Origin: Thiobacillus denitrificans
GTDB taxonomy: Bacteria; Pseudomonadota; Gammaproteobacteria; Burkholderiales; Thiobacillaceae
Direction: 5' to 3'
NCBI RefSeq assembly: GCF_001530125.1
Contig: NZ_LDUG01000033.1
Coordinates: forward strand, 42,143 to 106,142
DNA length: 64,000 nt
Below, in pieces: positions 2,726-28,671 of the stretch (positions are counted from its first letter, which is position 1; every line of letters starts with the position of its first letter). A program made the translations under genes and the position numbers. The notes beneath the pieces were generated by a model. That model saw nothing but the letters and a program-made list of their open reading frames with translations, was not told where the DNA came from and made no database searches.

Positions 2726-4398
2726 ACGCACCGCAACCCGAGCTAAACGCCGAAACCCTTGCCAAGCTGCGTCAGGAATCGCGCGCCGCTGGCCAGCCCT
2801 TCATGCTGCGGGTGCAGGAACAGTTCGGCCTCGACGCCGATGCCACGCTGCATATGTTGGCCGCACACAGCCACCAGCCGGCCTTCGACATGGGCGCGCT
2901 GAATGCGCTGACGGTCGACTTCAGCCAGCTGAATTTCAACGAGGCCGCACGACGGCATTGTCTGGCCGCGCGCGACGCCGATGCGCAACTGTGGCTGCTG
3001 CTGACCGACCCGTGGGACAGCGCCGGCCGCGCCTATGCCGCGCATGTGCTGGGCGTGCCGTTCAAGACCGGCCTGGCACACCCTGCCGATCTGGCTGCCC
3101 TGCTGGCGCGCCACGAAGAAGGCCTGCGCGCAATGGAAGGCGTGGGCGACAGCGGCGCGCTGTCGGTGCGGGATTCGGGCGCCGAGGCGCTGTCGTTTGC
3201 CAGTATCGCCGAGGACACCAGCCCGGTGGTGCGACTGGTCCGCTCGACGCTGTACGACGCCCTGAAAGCCGGCGCCTCCGACATCCACCTGGAAACCGAT
3301 CCGCGCGGACTGACGGTGAAATACCGCATCGACGGCGTGCTCTCGCACATTGCCCACGCGCCGGGAATGGAGGTGGCCGAACAGGCGGTGTCGCGCATCA
3401 AGGTGATGGCCGAACTCGACATCGCCGAGCGCCGGGTGCCGCAGGACGGCCGCTTCAAGGTGGCGATCCAGGGCCGCGAAGTCGACGTGCGCGTGTCGGT
3501 CATGCCGAGCGTGTTCGGCGAGGACGCGGTGCTGCGCATTTTGGACCGGCAGGCGCTGTCGGATGAACTCTCCGGCCTCACGCTGGAAGGCCTGGGCTAC
3601 GCCGGAACGACGCTGGCGCGCATCCGCAAGCTGGCGGCCGAACCCTACGGGATGCTGCTGGTGACCGGGCCGACCGGTTCCGGCAAGACCACCACGCTGT
3701 ACGCGGCGATTTCCGAAATCAACCACGGCCGCGACAAGATCATCACCATCGAAGACCCGGTCGAATACCAGCTGCCCGGCGTGCTGCAGATTCCGGTCAA
3801 CGAGAAAAAAGGACTGACCTTCGCGCGCGGCCTGCGCTCCATTCTGCGCCATGACCCCGACAAGATCATGGTCGGCGAAATCCGCGACGCCGACACCGCG
3901 CAGATCGCGGTGCAGTCTGCGCTCACCGGGCACCTGGTATTCACCACGGTGCATGCCAACAACGTGTTCGACGTCATCGGCCGCTTTATGCACATGGGGG
4001 TCGATCCCTACAGCTTCGTCTCGGCGCTCAACGGCATCGTCGCGCAGCGTCTGCTGCGGATAAATTGCCCGCATTGCGCCGCGCCCAATGTGCCATCGGC
4101 TGAAATCATGGAGCTGTCAGGATTGACTACCGAAAAAACCCATGATTTCACATTTCGCCAGGGCAGTGGTTGCGGCCATTGCCGCGGCAGCGGCTACAAA
4201 GGCCGCCGTGCGATCGCCGAAATCCTGCTGCTCACCGACGAGCTGCGCGAACTGATCGTGGCCCGCGCGCCGATCGGCCAGATCAAGGAAGCCGCCGCCC
4301 GCGGCGGCACCCGAAGCCTGCGCGAGGCCGCGCTCGCGCTGGTGAAGTCGGGCGACACCACGCTGGAAGAAATCAACCGTGTCACGCTGGTCGGCTGA
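2722..4398 (+). CDS. gspE: GspE, secretion assembly ATPase
   Basis: Cytoplasmic hexameric ATPase that powers pseudopilus assembly through GspF. The 558-residue protein begins at a GTG overlapping the gspF stop. The N-terminal 150 residues form the MshEN-type region that binds the GspL/PilM partner. The Walker A loop GPTGSGKTT lies at about 316-324, the Asp box and Walker B around LRHDPDKIMVGEIRD at about 374-388, and a His box (LTGHLVFTTVHANN) follows. Two CxxC pairs (CPHC and CGHC, about 449-490) form the zinc-binding C-domain seen in GspE and PilB. Confidence 0.95.
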   Translation: MNAPQPELNAETLAKLRQESRAAGQPFMLRVQEQFGLDADATLHMLAAHSHQPAFDMGALNALTVDFSQLNFNEAARRHCLAARDADAQLWLLLTDPWDSAGRAYAAHVLGVPFKTGLAHPADLAALLARHEEGLRAMEGVGDSGALSVRDSGAEALSFASIAEDTSPVVRLVRSTLYDALKAGASDIHLETDPRGLTVKYRIDGVLSHIAHAPGMEVAEQAVSRIKVMAELDIAERRVPQDGRFKVAIQGREVDVRVSVMPSVFGEDAVLRILDRQALSDELSGLTLEGLGYAGTTLARIRKLAAEPYGMLLVTGPTGSGKTTTLYAAISEINHGRDKIITIEDPVEYQLPGVLQIPVNEKKGLTFARGLRSILRHDPDKIMVGEIRDADTAQIAVQSALTGHLVFTTVHANNVFDVIGRFMHMGVDPYSFVSALNGIVAQRLLRINCPHCAAPNVPSAEIMELSGLTTEKTHDFTFRQGSGCGHCRGSGYKGRRAIAEILLLTDELRELIVARAPIGQIKEAAARGGTRSLREAALALVKSGDTTLEEINRVTLVG

Positions 4399-11624: not shown

Positions 11625-14600
11625 TTATTCACCGTCCGGAAGCGCTTTCCCGTACCACAGCGAATACACCACGGGAATCAGAATCAGCGACAGCAAAGCG
11701 GCCGACACCATGCCGCCGACCAGCGGGGCGGCGATGCGCTTCATGACGTCGGCCCCCGTGCCCTGGCTGAACAGGATCGGCAGCAGGCCGACGATGATGA
11801 CGGACACGGTCATGATCTTGGGGCGGATGCGCAGCAAGGCACCTTCCACGATGGCCTGGTGCAGGGCCGCGCGGTCTTTCAGTTCGCCGGCCTGGCGAAA
11901 GCGCTCGATGGCGTTGTCCAGGTACAGCAGCATGACGATGCCGAACTCGGCGGCCACGCCGGCCAGCGCGATGAAGCCGACCGCCACGGCGACCGAAAGC
12001 GGGTAGCCCAGCGCATAAATCAGCCAGAAGCCGCCCACCAGCGACAGCGGCAGGCAGGCCATCACCAGCATGACCTTGCCGGCATGGCGGAAGTGCATGT
12101 ACAGCAGCAGCAGCACCAGCAGGAGGGTGAGCGGCACCACCCACATCAGTCTGTCCCTGGCGTGCTGCATATGCATGTACTGGCCGGTCCACGCCACCGC
12201 ATAGCCGGGCGGCAGCTTGACGGACTGGTCCACTGCCGCCCTCGCCGCCTTGACGTAGCCGCCCTGGTCGCTGCTTTCGATATCGACGTAGACGTAGCCG
12301 ACCAGCCGCCCGTTTTCGCTCTTGATTTCAGCGGGCCCATCGACGACACGCACGGACGCAATCTCGCCCAGCGGCACGTGCAAGCCGGCGGGCGTGGTGA
12401 CCCGGCTCGCGGCCAGCGCGTCGAGCGAGTCGCGGTGGCCGCGCGGGTAGCGCAGGTTGATCGAATAGCGCTCGCGGCCATCGACCACCCTGCCGATGGT
12501 GTCGCCGCCGATCGCGGTGCGCACCAGGTTCTGCACATCGGCGACCCGGATGCCGTAGCGCGCCGTCTTCGCGCGGTTCACCTCAATATCGATGTAGCGC
12601 CCGCGGGTCACGCGTTCGGCAAACGCGTTGCGGGTGCCCGGCACCTCGCGGACCACCGCCTCGATCGCCTGTGCGACCTCGACAATACCCTGAAGGTCCG
12701 GCCCGGTGATCTTGGCGCCGACGGCGGTGCGAACGCCGGTCGACAGCATGTCGATGCGGGTGCGGATGGGATAGCCCCAGGAATTGGTCAGCCCCGGCAG
12801 GTTGACCGTCTCGTCCAGCTTGCGGATGAGGTCCTCGACGCTGGAGCCGGGCGGCCACTGGTCACGTGACTTCAGCAGGATGGTGGTTTCCAGCATGGAC
12901 AACGGCGCCGGGTCGGTGGCGGTGTCGGCCCGCCCAGCCTTGCCGAACACGCGCTCGACTTCCGGCATTTGAAGAATCAGCCGATCGGTGATCTGCAGGA
13001 TATGGGCGGCCTCGTCGATCGACAGCCCGGGCAAGGTGGTGGGCATGTAAAGCAGGTCGCCTTCATACAGCGGCGGCATGAACTCGCTGCCTGCCCTGCC
13101 CGCCGGCCAGGCGATGCTGGCCAGCGCCAGCGCGGCAACCAGCAGCGTGGCGCGCGGCCGCCGCAGCGCCCACAGCAGCAGCGGGCGGTAGGCGTTCTGC
13201 AAAAAACGGTTAGCCGGATTCCGGGTTTCCGGGGTGATGCGACCACGGACCAGATAGCCCATCAACACTGGCGTCAGCGTCACCGCCAGCGCCGCGCCGG
13301 CAGCCATGGCATAGGTCTTGGTGTAGGCCAGCGGCGCAAACAGCTTGCCTTCCTGCCCGGTGAGGGTGAGCACGGGGAGGAAGGAAACGGTGATGACCAG
13401 CAGCGAGAAGAACAACGCCGGGCCGACCTCGATCGCGCTTGTGCGTGCCACCTCCCAGACATCGTAATCCGGGCCCGCGCGCTCCAGGTGCTTGTGCATG
13501 TTCTCGATCATGACGATGGCGGCGTCGACCATGGCGCCGATGGCGATGGCGATGCCGCCCAGCGACATAATGTTGGCGGTAATGCCTTGTTGCTGCATCA
13601 CGACGAAGGCGGCCAGGATGCCCAGCGGCAAAGTCACCACCACCACCAGCGCGGAACGCAGGTGGAACAGGAAGACGAGACAGACGAGCGCGACGACGAT
13701 GGATTCCTCCATCAGCTTGCCGCCTAGGGTGTCGACTGCGCGCCCGATCAGGCCTGAGCGGTCGTAGGTCACCACCAGTTCGACGCCCGGCGGCAGCCCC
13801 GGTTTGAGTTCCTCCAGGCGCTGCTTGACCCGGGCTATTGTGTCCAGCGCGTTCTCGCCGTAGCGCATCACCACGATGCCGCCCGCCACCTCGCCCTCGC
13901 CGTCGAGGTCGGTCACCCCGCGGCGAGCTTCCGGGCCAGTTTGGATATGTGCCACATCGCCCAGCCGGATCGGCACGCCTTTTGCGTCGGTGCCAAGCGG
14001 GATGGTCGCAAAATCCTCCACCGATTTGAGGTAGCCGCGGACGCGCACCATGTATTCGGCGTGGCCCATTTCCATCACCGCCCCGCCGGTTTCATCGTTG
14101 CTGGCGCGCACGGCGTCCCCGATCTGCTGCAGGCTCAGGTTGTGACGCGACAGCCGGTTGGGGTCCACCTCGATCTGGAACTGCCGCACCGTGCCGCCGA
14201 CGCTGGCGACTTCGGCCACCCCGGGCACGTTCTGCAGTTCGACCTTCAGGAAGAAATCCTGCACCGCGCGCAGCCGGTCAAGGTCATAGCGGTTCTCGCG
14301 GTCGACCAGCGCATATTCGAACACCCAGCCGACGCCGGACGCATCAGGGCCCAGCGTCGGGCGGACGCCTTCGGGCAGCTGCGGCTGCGCCTGGGCCAGA
14401 TACTCCAGCACCCGGCTGCGCGCCCAGTAGGGGTCGGTTCCGTCCTCGAAAATGACGTAGATGAAGGATTCCCCGAACATGGAAAAGCCGCGCACCGCGG
14501 TGGATTTCGGCACTGCGAGCAAGGCGCTGGTCAGTGGATAGCTGACCTGGTCCTCCACCGTTTGCGGGGACTGGCCGGGGTACGATGTCTTGACGATGAC

Positions 14601-14756
14601 CTGCACATCGGACAGGTCGGGTATGGCGTCCAGCGCGATCTGGCGCGTGCTGAAATAGCCCGACGTGGCGAGCACGATGCCGGCGAGCAGCACCAGCAGG
14701 CGGTTCTTCAGCGACCATTCGATCAGGCGGACGACCATCCCGTTTTCGGCCATCAT
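11625..14756 (-). CDS. cusA: CusA-type heavy-metal RND efflux pump (Cu/Ag)
   Basis: Inner-membrane proton antiporter of a tripartite efflux system, 1043 residues, full length. The N-terminal helix (NRLLVLLAGIVL), DAIPDLSDVQVIV and YPGQSPQTVEDQVSYPL are typical of HME-RND pumps. The fourth membrane helix reads AIGAMVDAAIVMIENMHK, as in CusA/SilA rather than the CzcA form. EFMPPLYEGDLLYMPTTLPG and RTRIDMLSTGVRTAVGAKI carry methionines in the positions used for Cu(I)/Ag(I) in CusA. It overlaps cusB by four bases (ATGA). No outer-membrane CusC or CusF is visible here, so those parts must be elsewhere. Substrate is inferred from these motifs and the neighbouring copper enzymes. Confidence 0.93.
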   Translation of the reverse strand: MMAENGMVVRLIEWSLKNRLLVLLAGIVLATSGYFSTRQIALDAIPDLSDVQVIVKTSYPGQSPQTVEDQVSYPLTSALLAVPKSTAVRGFSMFGESFIYVIFEDGTDPYWARSRVLEYLAQAQPQLPEGVRPTLGPDASGVGWVFEYALVDRENRYDLDRLRAVQDFFLKVELQNVPGVAEVASVGGTVRQFQIEVDPNRLSRHNLSLQQIGDAVRASNDETGGAVMEMGHAEYMVRVRGYLKSVEDFATIPLGTDAKGVPIRLGDVAHIQTGPEARRGVTDLDGEGEVAGGIVVMRYGENALDTIARVKQRLEELKPGLPPGVELVVTYDRSGLIGRAVDTLGGKLMEESIVVALVCLVFLFHLRSALVVVVTLPLGILAAFVVMQQQGITANIMSLGGIAIAIGAMVDAAIVMIENMHKHLERAGPDYDVWEVARTSAIEVGPALFFSLLVITVSFLPVLTLTGQEGKLFAPLAYTKTYAMAAGAALAVTLTPVLMGYLVRGRITPETRNPANRFLQNAYRPLLLWALRRPRATLLVAALALASIAWPAGRAGSEFMPPLYEGDLLYMPTTLPGLSIDEAAHILQITDRLILQMPEVERVFGKAGRADTATDPAPLSMLETTILLKSRDQWPPGSSVEDLIRKLDETVNLPGLTNSWGYPIRTRIDMLSTGVRTAVGAKITGPDLQGIVEVAQAIEAVVREVPGTRNAFAERVTRGRYIDIEVNRAKTARYGIRVADVQNLVRTAIGGDTIGRVVDGRERYSINLRYPRGHRDSLDALAASRVTTPAGLHVPLGEIASVRVVDGPAEIKSENGRLVGYVYVDIESSDQGGYVKAARAAVDQSVKLPPGYAVAWTGQYMHMQHARDRLMWVVPLTLLLVLLLLYMHFRHAGKVMLVMACLPLSLVGGFWLIYALGYPLSVAVAVGFIALAGVAAEFGIVMLLYLDNAIERFRQAGELKDRAALHQAIVEGALLRIRPKIMTVSVIIVGLLPILFSQGTGADVMKRIAAPLVGGMVSAALLSLILIPVVYSLWYGKALPDGE

Positions 14757-16117
14757 TGCGCCGGGGCTTGGCTGGCGCGCATGCGCTGCGCGCTATCGGC
14801 AATGGACGCGGCGGCATCCAGCAGGAACAGGCCGTTGACCGCCACCTGATCGCCCTCGTCGAGCCCGTCACGAATCGCGATGCGCTCGGCGGTCTCGATG
14901 CCGGTGACGACCTTGACCGGCATGAAATGTCCCTTGTCCAATGCGCGCATCACAAAATTGCCGCGCCCGCTGCGCATCACCGCGCTCTTCGGCACCGACA
15001 GCACCTCGCGCGGCGTGGCATGGATCGTCACCTGGGCATATTCGCCCAGCCTGGGCGTGCGCGAGAGCGTCACCGGCATGCGTACCCGAAGCGTGCGGGT
15101 CGTCTCGTCCAGCAGTGGATGCAGGCCACGCAGCTTTGCCTTGATCGTTTCGCCGTCAGAAAACACCAGGGTGACGGCATTGCCCTCCTCCACCCAGTTG
15201 AGCTGGTCCGGGTACAGCACCATTTCGATCTGGGCGTGCGCCGGGTCGACGCAGTGCAGGATCTCGGTCATGGTGCCCACCGTCATGCCCGGCCGCGCCA
15301 TCACCGCCTGCACCACGCAGTCGCGCTGTGCCCGGGCCTGCACCACGCCGAGCGCCTCATCGGTTTGGATCAGCCGGTCCAGCATGGCGTCGCTAAAGCC
15401 GATTTGCTGCAGACGCAGCTTCACTCGCGCGCGGTCGCGCTCCAGCGGCTGCAGGATCGACCTCAACTGCTCCTCGCTCTGACGGACGCCGCGCTCGGCC
15501 TGCTCAAGTTCGGCGGGATCGTAGTCACGCGCTTTTTCCAGAATGACGCGATTCTGCCCACGCCGTTCCGTCGCCATGTTCATGGCGGGCAAGCCGCGCC
15601 GCAGAATATCGATGTATTCGTACTGGAGATCCAGGGCTTCCTGCGAGGACAGCTCGTACAGCAGCTGGCCGCGCTCGATGCGCTGGCCGACGCGGCTCAC
15701 ATGCAGCCGCGTCAGCAGGCCGCTTACATTGGGGGTAATGCGCAGCACCGCGCTTTCATCGGCCACCAGCGTCCCGTAGATGGGCATGTCGTGCGTCAGG
15801 GTGGCGCGTTCTGCTTTCGCCAGGCGCACGCCGAGCTTTTGCTGCGTCGCGGTGTCGACGTGGATCTGGCTGTCTACCGCGCCGGACGCATCCTTCAGCA
15901 CCACCAGATCCATGCCGCAAATCGGGCAATCGCCGGCGTGATCCTGGGCAATGTGCGGGTGCATCGGGCACACATAGGTCTGCCCGGCAGCCGAGGTGGC
16001 CGGTTGTGATAAAGCATCAAGGGAAGCGGGCGGGGATGAAGCCTGGCGGGTTCCCAGCCAGAAACCGCCTGCGCCGACGGCCACCGCGATCAGCAATACC
16101 AGCGCTGCTTTATTCAT
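14753..16117 (-). CDS. cusB: CusB-type periplasmic adaptor with heavy-metal-binding domain
   Basis: A membrane-fusion protein of 454 residues that links the RND pump to an outer-membrane channel. It starts with a signal anchor, then a small metal-binding domain (YVCPMHPHIAQDHAGDCPICGMDL, about 49-72, with paired CPMHP and CPICGM motifs) found in CusB and copper ATPases. Lipoyl/barrel-sandwich and coiled-coil segments (about 110-270) and the MFP C-terminal domain (EVLSVPKSAVMRSGRGNFV) follow. It is translated with cusA through an ATGA overlap. A terminator from the oxidase genes lies just upstream, so cusBA probably has its own promoter in the 90-base gap or depends on read-through. Confidence 0.93.
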   Translation of the reverse strand: MNKAALVLLIAVAVGAGGFWLGTRQASSPPASLDALSQPATSAAGQTYVCPMHPHIAQDHAGDCPICGMDLVVLKDASGAVDSQIHVDTATQQKLGVRLAKAERATLTHDMPIYGTLVADESAVLRITPNVSGLLTRLHVSRVGQRIERGQLLYELSSQEALDLQYEYIDILRRGLPAMNMATERRGQNRVILEKARDYDPAELEQAERGVRQSEEQLRSILQPLERDRARVKLRLQQIGFSDAMLDRLIQTDEALGVVQARAQRDCVVQAVMARPGMTVGTMTEILHCVDPAHAQIEMVLYPDQLNWVEEGNAVTLVFSDGETIKAKLRGLHPLLDETTRTLRVRMPVTLSRTPRLGEYAQVTIHATPREVLSVPKSAVMRSGRGNFVMRALDKGHFMPVKVVTGIETAERIAIRDGLDEGDQVAVNGLFLLDAAASIADSAQRMRASQAPAQ

Positions 16118-16151: not shown

Positions 16152-16202
16152 GGCCATGCCAAAAAAAAGGGGGGAAGCCCCCCCTTTCAACCTGGCATGG
16201 CC
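16152..16202 (-). terminator. Nested hairpin terminator after the oxidase genes
   Basis: On the minus strand a GC-rich stem of six G-C pairs with loop CTT is followed by eight T residues, the classic rho-independent form. It is enclosed by a second perfect repeat, GGCCATGCCA at 16152-16161 and its complement at 16193-16202. It lies directly behind the stop of the second oxidase gene. Confidence 0.8.
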
Positions 16203-16208
16203 GTGCGC

Positions 16209-17186
16209 TCAGGTCACGTTGATGCGCGTGCGCGCCGTCCCCATCACCGCGCCGGTGCGCCAGTGCAGGAACTGGACGGTCACGGTCCAAGTCCCGGTGG
16301 TAGTCGGCTTGATGATGCAGTCGTAGCGCTCGGCCGAATGAGCCTCGATCGCCTGGGTCTGCCAGACTGCGGGCAGCGGGCGGCCGTCGGAGGCCACCAC
16401 ATCAACGGTGAGGCCGCCGAAATCGATCTTTTGCGGATGGAAGCCGGCGCAGATATAGCGCGCCAGCAAGGTCTGGCCGAGCGTCATGTCGACCGCCACG
16501 CCCGGATGGGTCAGCGCAGAGCTCGCGCCGTCCACGCCGCTGATGATGAAATACTTGGGATTGAGGTTGTTCAGTCCGACATCGCCGCCGCAGGTGCCCG
16601 CATACCACGGCAGGTTGTGCCAGGCCGGGTCGATTTCATCCGCCGCCCAGATCGCTTCCACATCGTAGATCGGTCCGTTGGCAAAGGCGCGCCGCGTCCC
16701 CGCCGGATCGTTCGGATCCGGCTTCGGATCCACGATCAGCCCGCCATACATGCCCATTTCCGCATGCAGCGGGGTGTTGGTATGGCAGTGATAGAAATAG
16801 GTGCCCGCGCTAGAAGGCCGCCACTGATAGGTGTACGTCCCATTCGTGACATCCCATGAAAAATGCCCGACGCCGTCGTTCTCCTCGCTCGGCTCGATGC
16901 CGTGATGATGGATGGTATGCATCCACATCATGCCCACCGTCAGTTCGGTATGGACGATCTGCCCTTCGGTCACGCGGATCGCTGGTGACGGGAAGGAGCC
17001 GCCGCCCATCCCGTCGTCCTGCCCTTGCCCTGCCGCAAGGTCGGTAAAGCCCCAGATCGTCACCGATTTTCCGTCGTCGAAGCTCATCGAGCCGTTCATG
17101 TAGATGCCGCGTCGGAACAGCACGTCGGGCGTGACCCGTCCCGGCGTCGCCGGCGCATCCGGATACACATAGCAGGCATCGCTCAT
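16209..17186 (-). CDS. Multicopper oxidase subunit carrying the type 1 copper site; no signal peptide
   Basis: A 325-residue cupredoxin protein with two domains. Domain 1 (about 65-155) holds HTIHHHG (H90, H93-H95) and FYHCHTNTPLHAEMGM (H133, C134, H135, H141, M146). These match type 1 copper ligands (H90, C134, H141, M146) and half of a trinuclear centre (H93, H95, H133, H135). Domain 2 (about 180-325) has lost most ligands. The start is fixed by GAGGAG nine bases upstream and only 20 bases after the partner gene, and the protein begins MSDACYVYPD with no export signal. It would have to leave the cytoplasm with its Tat-tagged partner or work inside. The oxidised substrate is unknown; copper(I) is plausible given cusBA next door. 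Confidence 0.82.
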   Translation of the reverse strand: MSDACYVYPDAPATPGRVTPDVLFRRGIYMNGSMSFDDGKSVTIWGFTDLAAGQGQDDGMGGGSFPSPAIRVTEGQIVHTELTVGMMWMHTIHHHGIEPSEENDGVGHFSWDVTNGTYTYQWRPSSAGTYFYHCHTNTPLHAEMGMYGGLIVDPKPDPNDPAGTRRAFANGPIYDVEAIWAADEIDPAWHNLPWYAGTCGGDVGLNNLNPKYFIISGVDGASSALTHPGVAVDMTLGQTLLARYICAGFHPQKIDFGGLTVDVVASDGRPLPAVWQTQAIEAHSAERYDCIIKPTTTGTWTVTVQFLHWRTGAVMGTARTRINVT

Positions 17187-17206
17187 TTGTCAGTCTCCTC
17201 GATTTT

Positions 17207-18229
17207 TTATTTGAATACGATTTCGGTCATCGCGCCGAACTGGTACATGCCACCACCAGCGGTCTGCGACATCTCATCGTGCAGGTGCATGGGGAAATGC
17301 CCCGTGGTGACCGGCGGATAGGCATCGGGCGGCGCCTCGAACGGGTAGATGGCGTCGATCTTGCCCAGCTTGTTGCGCACCTGAATCGTGTCCTTCTTCC
17401 ACACCTGGGGCCGCACCGAACCGCGATCGGTTAGCCACTCCATATGGTTGGCATGCACATGCATCGAATGCGTACACATGCCCGCATTCAGCATGCGAAC
17501 GAGGGTGCGGTCGCCCAGATATCCCGCCAGCTGAGAACGCGTGTCGAACAGGGCGTCGCGCGTGGGATCGCCATGACCCGGCGCGCCCGGCGGCAACGAG
17601 GTGAGGCCATTGATGGTGAAGTAACGCGGGGTGAAACTGGTGGGAATGGCCGTGCCATCCTGCACCGCCTTGTTCAGCGCCGGATCGATGTCGTTGAAGA
17701 TCCAGAATGTCTGCTTCTTGAACGTCGGGCTGCCCGAATACATCTGATTGGTCTTGCCCGCCGGCATGATCGCCAGCCCGCCGTGCAGACCGAGGAAGAC
17801 GTTGTAGTTCGTCTTGTTGTCGTAAAACAGGTAGGAGCCTGCTTTGCCGGTGGGGATGGTGTAGGTGATGGTCTTGCTGCCACCCCCCGCGATGTCGCCG
17901 GTGCTGGCCAGCGGCGCATCGCCTGCCTTGAGGCCGCCGATCACGAAGTTATGCGTCACCGCGAGGCGGTTGATCACCGTGATCTCCAGCGTGTCGCCTT
18001 CCTGGCAAATGATCGGGGTGGCCGGGATATTGAGGTCGGCGGACGAATCGCTGAACCCCTTGACGTAAATCGACACGCCGTCCGGCATCGTCTGCGTGCC
18101 GGCGGTAATGTAAAACGTCTTGCTGATGGTGGCCGCTTCCGAACGGGTTGACCACGACAACAAGCCGGTCCCCGTCATCAAGCTGGCAAACCCGGCCGTT
18201 CCGGCCTTCAAGAACCCTCTACGCTCCAT
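17207..18229 (-). CDS. Tat-exported multicopper oxidase subunit lacking the type 1 copper cysteine
   Basis: A 340-residue protein starting MERRGFLKAG, a twin-arginine export signal ending near SEAA (about 29-33). Domain 1 (about 35-160) is cupredoxin-like but where HCH is expected it reads YDN (136-138). Domain 2 keeps THSMHVHANH (H254, H257, H259, H262) and HFPMHLHDEM (H311, H315, H317), corresponding to the HxxHxH and HCH motifs of the last domain of laccases, with Leu316 in place of the copper cysteine. On its own it cannot form a complete oxidase. It is followed after 20 bases by the subunit that has the missing type 1 site, and both share one terminator. Confidence 0.82.
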   Translation of the reverse strand: MERRGFLKAGTAGFASLMTGTGLLSWSTRSEAATISKTFYITAGTQTMPDGVSIYVKGFSDSSADLNIPATPIICQEGDTLEITVINRLAVTHNFVIGGLKAGDAPLASTGDIAGGGSKTITYTIPTGKAGSYLFYDNKTNYNVFLGLHGGLAIMPAGKTNQMYSGSPTFKKQTFWIFNDIDPALNKAVQDGTAIPTSFTPRYFTINGLTSLPPGAPGHGDPTRDALFDTRSQLAGYLGDRTLVRMLNAGMCTHSMHVHANHMEWLTDRGSVRPQVWKKDTIQVRNKLGKIDAIYPFEAPPDAYPPVTTGHFPMHLHDEMSQTAGGGMYQFGAMTEIVFK

Positions 18230-28533: not shown

Positions 28534-28671
28534 AGGGAAGTTCTGAGCAAGCCGTCATTGCGAGGAGCGTAGCGACGTGGCAATCCAAAAAGGCCTTTAT
28601 TTATATTGATACGCTGGATTGCCGCGCTTCGCTCGCAATGACAAAGATTCAGGTTTGTTCAGGAGTTCCTT
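28534..28671. repeat. REP-like palindromic repeat, copy 2
   Basis: Core arms GTCATTGCGAGGAGCG...GGCAATCCA and TGGATTGCC...GCTCGCAATGAC match copy 1 at 18325-18463 almost base for base, while the loop and outer arms differ. Outer arms around 28534-28550 and 28655-28671 also pair imperfectly. It lies between smc and queF, about 40 bases before the queF start. Confidence 0.8.

Follow-up and report, generated by a model that had tools for sequence, protein, structure and literature searches.

Two adjacent genes lie on the reverse strand of the 64,000-nt stretch of Thiobacillus denitrificans DNA that we analysed (the window; positions are numbered from its first base). The first, P1 (17207..18229), encodes 340 aa and the second, P2 (16209..17186), 325 aa, both as open reading frames where the preliminary description had them. 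The gap between the P1 stop codon and the P2 ATG is 20 bases, and by eye an AGGAG-like site precedes P2. On the same strand, 3′ of P2, is a terminator-like hairpin with a T run (16170..16184), counted as three overlapping registers of one site against a mean of 1.8 (sd 1.2) in shuffled sequences; this is only suggestive of a P1–P2 two-gene unit. A promoter scan at the locus found none. Two neighbours on the reverse strand lie outside the enzyme: an open reading frame for a CusB-like adaptor with a heavy-metal-binding domain (14753..16117), supported by homologue matches (its homologue L006:2570-3931 scored 99.1 bits with RND_mfp and also matched HlyD_D23 and HMBD), and one for a CusA-like efflux pump (11625..14756), named by reading the sequence. 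A REP-like element is found upstream of P1 (18359-18380), with a second copy differing by two mismatches at 28565-28586.

Homologues were collected by one pattern scan of a species-genome collection, which gave 76 loci, and three loci (L001, L006 and L007) were added from whole-genome searches. The resulting set held 70 complete P1 and 73 complete P2, with two genomes present twice and one P2 (L074) lacking a proper start. Removal of incomplete and then of identical sequences left 68 distinct P1 and 71 distinct P2, the window's own included, for the conservation counts. Four longer oxidases from the same genome as the window (L002-L005) were kept apart from the homologue set and from the adjacency and neighbourhood counts. 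Among the 76 loci were Thiobacillus, Gallionellales, Thiogranum, Sedimenticola, Thioalkalivibrio, Sulfurimonas, Nitrosomonas communis and many other Gammaproteobacteria; the pair occurs in Beta-/Gammaproteobacteria and Campylobacterota.

P1 carries half of a trinuclear copper site in its second domain. The ligands are H257 and H259 (H257-V-H259, codons at 17453..17461, reverse strand) together with H315 and H317 (H315-L316-H317, 17279..17287, reverse strand), and each was His in 68/68 sequences. Leucine occupies the type 1 Cys position in the window, and position 316 was L in 62, F in 3 and C in 3 of the 68. The first domain has no copper ligands and neither HxH nor HCH, in line with the preliminary description. 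That description had also named an HxxHxH motif, of which the first His, H254, is not conserved (H in 36/68, Q in 29/68); a P1 lacking a type 1 site would be expected to show this. In the P1 proteins that bear HCH (Thioalkalivibrio and a plasmid-borne gene of Indioceanicola), the second type 1 His is still missing. P1 matched Pfam Cu-oxidase_3 at 26.9 bits (cut-off 21) and Cu-oxidase_2 at 20.1 bits, slightly below the 20.4 cut-off.

P2 holds the other trinuclear half and a complete type 1 site, both in its first domain, and its second domain is free of copper ligands. All eight residues proposed earlier are present: the type 1 ligand H90 with the trinuclear H93 and H95 (H90 to H95 at 16902..16919, reverse strand), the trinuclear pair H133/H135 flanking the type 1 C134, and the type 1 His and Met, H141 and M146 (H133 to M146 at 16749..16790, reverse strand). 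Every one was invariant in 71/71 sequences except H93 (70/71), for which the sole deviation is N in one homologue (L058). The H90/H95 spacing had been taken as a mark of NirK-type domains, a point we do not retain, as H-x-x-H-x-H also occurs in single-gene two-domain oxidases, including 3g5w. P2 matched Cu-oxidase_3 at 52.5 bits. Two cysteines were also conserved in core P2, C5 (17172-17174; 70/71) and C199 (16590-16592; 71/71), and both were missing in 20/20 P2 of a sister group, in which the alignment near C5 is uncertain. Since they are kept or lost together, P2 probably contains a C5–C199 disulfide, and this would be consistent with a location in the periplasm. In the predicted models (pLDDT 85.9 for P1, 78.7 for P2), confidence fell below 50 at residues 319-328 of P1, after HLH, and in stretches of P2 that include both copper loops (94-100, 102-109 and 134-146). 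Such values would be as expected of an interface that is disordered in the monomer, and may have other causes too.

The division of ligands between P1 and P2 is real and conserved, a trait of the family. In 68/68 complete pairs the genes were adjacent on one strand with P1 first, separated by 11-187 bases, and the histidines of P1 (68/68) and ligands of P2 (71/71 bar one H93N) were partitioned throughout as first proposed. The only homologues seen to combine all ligands in a single chain were more distant single-gene oxidases. When the pair was aligned with such relatives from Deinococcus and Halomarina, which have both halves per chain, the losses in P1 and P2 were complementary and fell in the same columns; the profile alignment of P2 to 3g5w placed its losses at these columns too. 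Sister pairs came from 369 class genomes (27 matching, some of them single-gene oxidases) and from order searches in which 12/57 and 5/11 genomes matched, the genomes being partly shared; four loci were set aside from these sets, L122 (two P2-like genes and no P1 on the contig) and the single-gene oxidases L128, L129 and L131. In the sister pairs, H257/H259 of P1 were present in 20/20, H315/H317 in 19/20 and the P2 ligands in 20/20, and the odd P1 row is probably L124, whose P1 frame is broken. A regular-expression count over 106 distinct pairs recovered the ligands in 100/106 P1 and 105/106 P2; the six P1 misses, L124 among them, carry HxHGYH, which lies outside the pattern, and the single P2 miss is the L058 sequence with N at 93.

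P1 and P2 cross-match in many loci and are, by sequence comparison, paralogous two-domain cupredoxin proteins. In a tree of 41 selected rows that included single-gene oxidases, P1 formed one clade and P2 another (support 100/99). Distances within P1 and P2 were correlated over 64 pairs (r 0.816; permutation maximum 0.303), although shared host history alone would also raise r. Because each forms one clade and the distances correlate, the split is old and has been retained. Foldseek gave 2zwn and 3g5w as best matches for both predicted models. Two cupredoxin domains per chain, as in two-domain multicopper oxidases (2dMCOs), were found by Pfam, in the models and in structural matches over both domains; against this assignment, NirK chains scored equal to 3g5w in the structural alignment of P1. 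Type C 2dMCOs have the type 1 copper in domain 1, and 2dMCO trimers share their clusters between protomers (PMC13151041). P2 has its type 1 site in domain 1 only (71/71), and P1 has none. The type C homotrimer has both trinuclear halves on one chain, whereas here they are split between P1 and P2, and so the pair is a variant of type C and not a plain member.

The two proteins differ in their export signals. P1 begins with a Tat signal peptide (about residues 1-33, its end judged by eye; 18131..18229, reverse strand), composed of ERRGFLK and a hydrophobic stretch, and scored 16.5 bits with TIGR01409, slightly below the cut-off of 16.7. An RRxF[LIMV] motif was present in 70/70 complete core P1. 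P2 starts MSDACYVYP with no hydrophobic segment, and no signal peptide was found on P2 in 68/68 core pairs, so that both halves of the preliminary signal assignment stood. The pattern is that of Tat hitchhikers, a signal-bearing subunit with a signal-less partner, known from hydrogenase or DMSO reductase subunits. A hidden P2 signal was also sought: 1/73 P2 exceeded the hydrophobicity threshold, in an upstream reading (L072) judged to be outside the gene. Many P2 homologues have Gly/Met-rich tails ahead of a conserved ACYVYP, and the called P2 start at L016:5896 crosses long Thr and Gly tracts.

One sister group keeps the ligand partition and has a Sec signal on P1 and an own Sec signal on P2. 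By an automatic rule, the 106 distinct pairs comprised 82 Tat/none (74 core and 8 of a lower-score class, including one with a truncated core P2 and the Indioceanicola pairs), 12 Sec/Sec (11 two-gene and 1 three-gene), 5 with the P1 start cut off (P2 Sec in 3, none in 2) and 7 others; this count left out L002-L005, L162 and the single-gene oxidase loci L088-L090, L095-L100, L128, L129 and L131. Inspection of the seven others by eye gave Sec/Sec for L139 and for L177, L178 and L179 (three-gene group), a genuine Tat/Tat pair whose P2 resembles a lipoprotein (L118) and no signal on either protein in Arthrobacter L085; the remaining one, L024, is Tat/none, its automatically called P2 'Tat' being an upstream reading over the end of P1. 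The pair L124 was counted as Tat/none, although its P1 frame is broken and the start of its P2 uncertain, and the P2 of L142 has a Sec signal when read from its likely start. Both types occur side by side in two genomes, where each type shows the signals expected of it (L109 and L120 in G746; L113 and L130 in G677).

Sec threads unfolded chains, and a passenger cannot be carried. The pairing of a Sec-type P1 with a Sec-type P2 is therefore the direction that a hitchhiker model predicts, and the contrast between Tat/none and Sec/Sec favours Tat 'hitchhiking' of P2. Sec-type P1 and Sec-type P2 form matching clades in a tree of 62 selected rows (L124 was left out), and so the contrast amounts to about one evolutionary switch and not to many independent tests. 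The earlier proposal that the proteins leave the cell by Tat as a complex thus gains support from this contrast, tempered by the single switch and by the L118 exception.

The best explanation of the partition, conservation, adjacency, paralogy, fold class and signal pattern is that P1 and P2 are unlike subunits of a heteromeric 2dMCO derived from a duplicated type C gene, with P2 as the Tat passenger of P1; we put its probability at about 0.84. From these observations we infer the assembly of P1 and P2 and its order, their export, copper loading, activity and substrate. An ancestral type C gene, whose product would have been a trimer with clusters between protomers, would have duplicated; the P1 copy would then have lost the type 1 site and the domain 1 half of the cluster, and the P2 copy the domain 2 half. 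A complete O2-reducing site would exist only at the P1–P2 contact, and electrons would pass from the type 1 copper of P2 through its H-C-H motif to the shared cluster, where O2 would be reduced to water. For the window's lineage, the likeliest course is that P2 folds in the cytoplasm, binds P1 there and passes Tat as a passenger. Our first guess is that the enzyme oxidises a metal, either as a cuprous oxidase in the periplasm or with some other metal as substrate. In 80 neighbourhoods (a few genomes counted twice), the clusters found near the pair were cusB-like (22), cusA-like (18) and a Crp/Fnr-type regulator (11), and no further identified cluster was common. Conserved neighbours are thus few and point to no particular substrate.

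It is unlikely, with perhaps one chance in ten, that the heteromer is right and P2 is exported alone by an unrecognised route, or that the complex is cytoplasmic and the Tat signal serves part of the P1 pool. P2 has no classical signal, the Gly/Met-rich start of many homologues is unusual, and the case for its export is indirect. A cytoplasmic P2, however, would be parted from P1 by the Tat motif on every complete core P1, and the own Sec signal of P2 beside a Sec-type P1 indicates that P2 works outside the cytoplasm there. The joint retention or loss of C5 and C199, with the alignment of C5 uncertain in the sister group, likewise suggests a disulfide.

A further alternative, that the two proteins form separate homomers, with P2 a type 1 electron carrier or a NirK-like enzyme and P1 a copper-binding scaffold, is very improbable. 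P2 does have a complete type 1 site and a weak similarity to Cu nitrite reductase, and NCBIfam gave sub-threshold CopA similarity for both proteins and CueO, Cu nitrite reductase and others for P2. As a nitrite reductase, P2 was rejected: it scored 31.6 bits with TIGR02376 against a cut-off of 296.3, and P1 was not listed there. The third type 2 His of NirK comes from domain 2 of a single gene product; domain 2 of P2 is without the HxH motifs of its relatives. Moreover, the four domain 1 trinuclear histidines of P2 would be useless without domain 2 partners, P1 keeps exactly the four that P2 lacks, and all complete pairs are adjacent. That both copies are degenerating pseudo-enzymes of a decaying operon is scarcely credible: half of the ligands of the ancestor are gone from each copy and the pair is patchy (3/60 relatives, all of the own genus and including the own genome; 1/398 phylum genomes, the own genome), yet the remaining ligands are invariant across deeply diverged Beta-/Gammaproteobacteria and Campylobacterota and in the sister group, and mean identity is 59% for P1 and 67% for P2 (64 pairs with intact frames).

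The heteromeric 2dMCO may contain more than one copy of a subunit. A P1-profile search of 300 order genomes (11 matching) gave four loci with three cupredoxin genes each (L187:4895-9453, L188:3869-8287, L189:3979-8460 and L190:4897-9633). In all four, subunit a has an HTVHFHG-type motif, HCH and the type 1 site, subunit b has an HPLHTHGN-type motif and HSHNE, and subunit c has no trinuclear ligands, with a cadherin/Ig-like tail in L187. L190 also encodes a cytochrome c and, by eye, an SCO1/SenC-like stretch. In a tree of 48 selected rows, b and c grouped with P1 (98/95) and c was sister to b (97/96; one c row was long-branched), and a grouped with P2 at 91/86, below the starred support level. 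Three unlike two-domain subunits with one ligand set point to a three-membered ring that has a single active site.

These relatives bear on the claim of an obligate heteromer. The conserved partition, the constant adjacency and descent from two-domain oxidases with centres between subunits strongly support a composite trinuclear centre in an obligate heteromer. The plain 1:1 form is doubtful because 2dMCO relatives are trimeric and the third subunit of the three-gene form lacks trinuclear ligands. By analogy, a three-membered ring with a single active site would be at least as likely as a plain 1:1 dimer, and 2:1, 1:2 and plain 1:1 are all candidates for the two-gene form. Tentatively, and at slightly less than even odds, we propose a family of asymmetric oxidases in which three-subunit rings hold a single type 1/trinuclear unit and the third position is taken by a second copy, probably P1, or by a dedicated, adhesive-tailed subunit that lacks trinuclear ligands. 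The choice of P1 follows from the sister relationship between the third subunit of the three-gene form and its P1-like subunit. If so, export of the pair by Tat after its assembly would serve as quality control, letting only complete half-sites out of the cell.

Several loci depart from the simple pair. Paenarthrobacter aurescens pTC1 has an intact P1 and only weak P2 fragments, in a search that covered the plasmid. In L074 and L076 the P2 start is truncated or odd and no P1 lies alongside, perhaps through assembly breaks. We sought an intact natural P1–P2 fusion among the loci and found none; on an Arthrobacter FW305-BF8 plasmid (L085:4496-6843), a P1-like frame enters the P2 start and P2 goes on in another frame, which may reflect a sequencing error, a real break or recoding. 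Two tandem P1–P2 pairs occur at L062:2315-6951. L122:2944-5024, at a contig end without P1, has two tandem P2-like genes, of which that at 2944-4122 has a Tat-lipoprotein-like start.

Multicopper oxidases are textbook single-gene enzymes. Two type C enzymes, as that type is defined in PMC13151041, are the closest: 3g5w, a blue copper oxidase of Nitrosomonas europaea, and 2zwn, a two-domain laccase from a metagenome. In both, the two half-sites belong to one product, whereas here they belong to two. CopA/PcoA (TIGR01480) was the best NCBIfam family for both proteins (P2 73.1 bits, P1 25.7 bits; cut-off 478.95), and copper-efflux-like neighbours at the locus add to the likeness, but CopA is one long chain (593-position model). 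Fungal heterodimeric laccases (POXA3) share with P1–P2 the use of two unlike chains; in those laccases every copper ligand is on the large chain, and the small one is an unrelated protein.

Among published systems, Slit_1816-1818 of Sideroxydans lithotrophicus ES-1 are three adjacent cupredoxins, of which two have multicopper motifs and the third, a larger protein, has none; SCO1/SenC and a cytochrome are encoded nearby, and expression was higher in late cultures on magnetite than in those on Fe(II)-citrate (PMC12016527). The layout of L187-L190 matches this published description, which is the basis of the comparison, and the parts of that account used here describe no split site (PMC12016527). 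The three-gene form differs from P1–P2 in its larger partner without trinuclear ligands, cadherin-like-tailed in L187. MnxEFG is, like P1–P2, a multicopper oxidase complex of unlike subunits; MnxG is the oxidase, MnxE/MnxF resemble no characterised protein, and a paralogous splitting of the trinuclear site is not mentioned in the sections drawn on (PMC5622069).

Our search of the open-access literature found no report of a trinuclear centre split between two genes, an absence that such a search does not prove, and we regard the P1–P2 partition as a new variant among two-domain multicopper oxidases. Accounts of the evolution of these enzymes start with two-domain homotrimers and end with single chains of three or six domains. 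This lineage would instead have broken symmetry through gene duplication and complementary loss, and the resulting natural heteromer would allow one half-site to be mutated without the other. Since the equivalent pair of a sister lineage uses two Sec signals, the pair would also offer a ready test of Tat co-export. Finally, the finding suggests a reading for gene pairs that, in oxidisers of sulfur, iron and ammonia, are labelled only 'multicopper oxidase domain' or 'hypothetical'.
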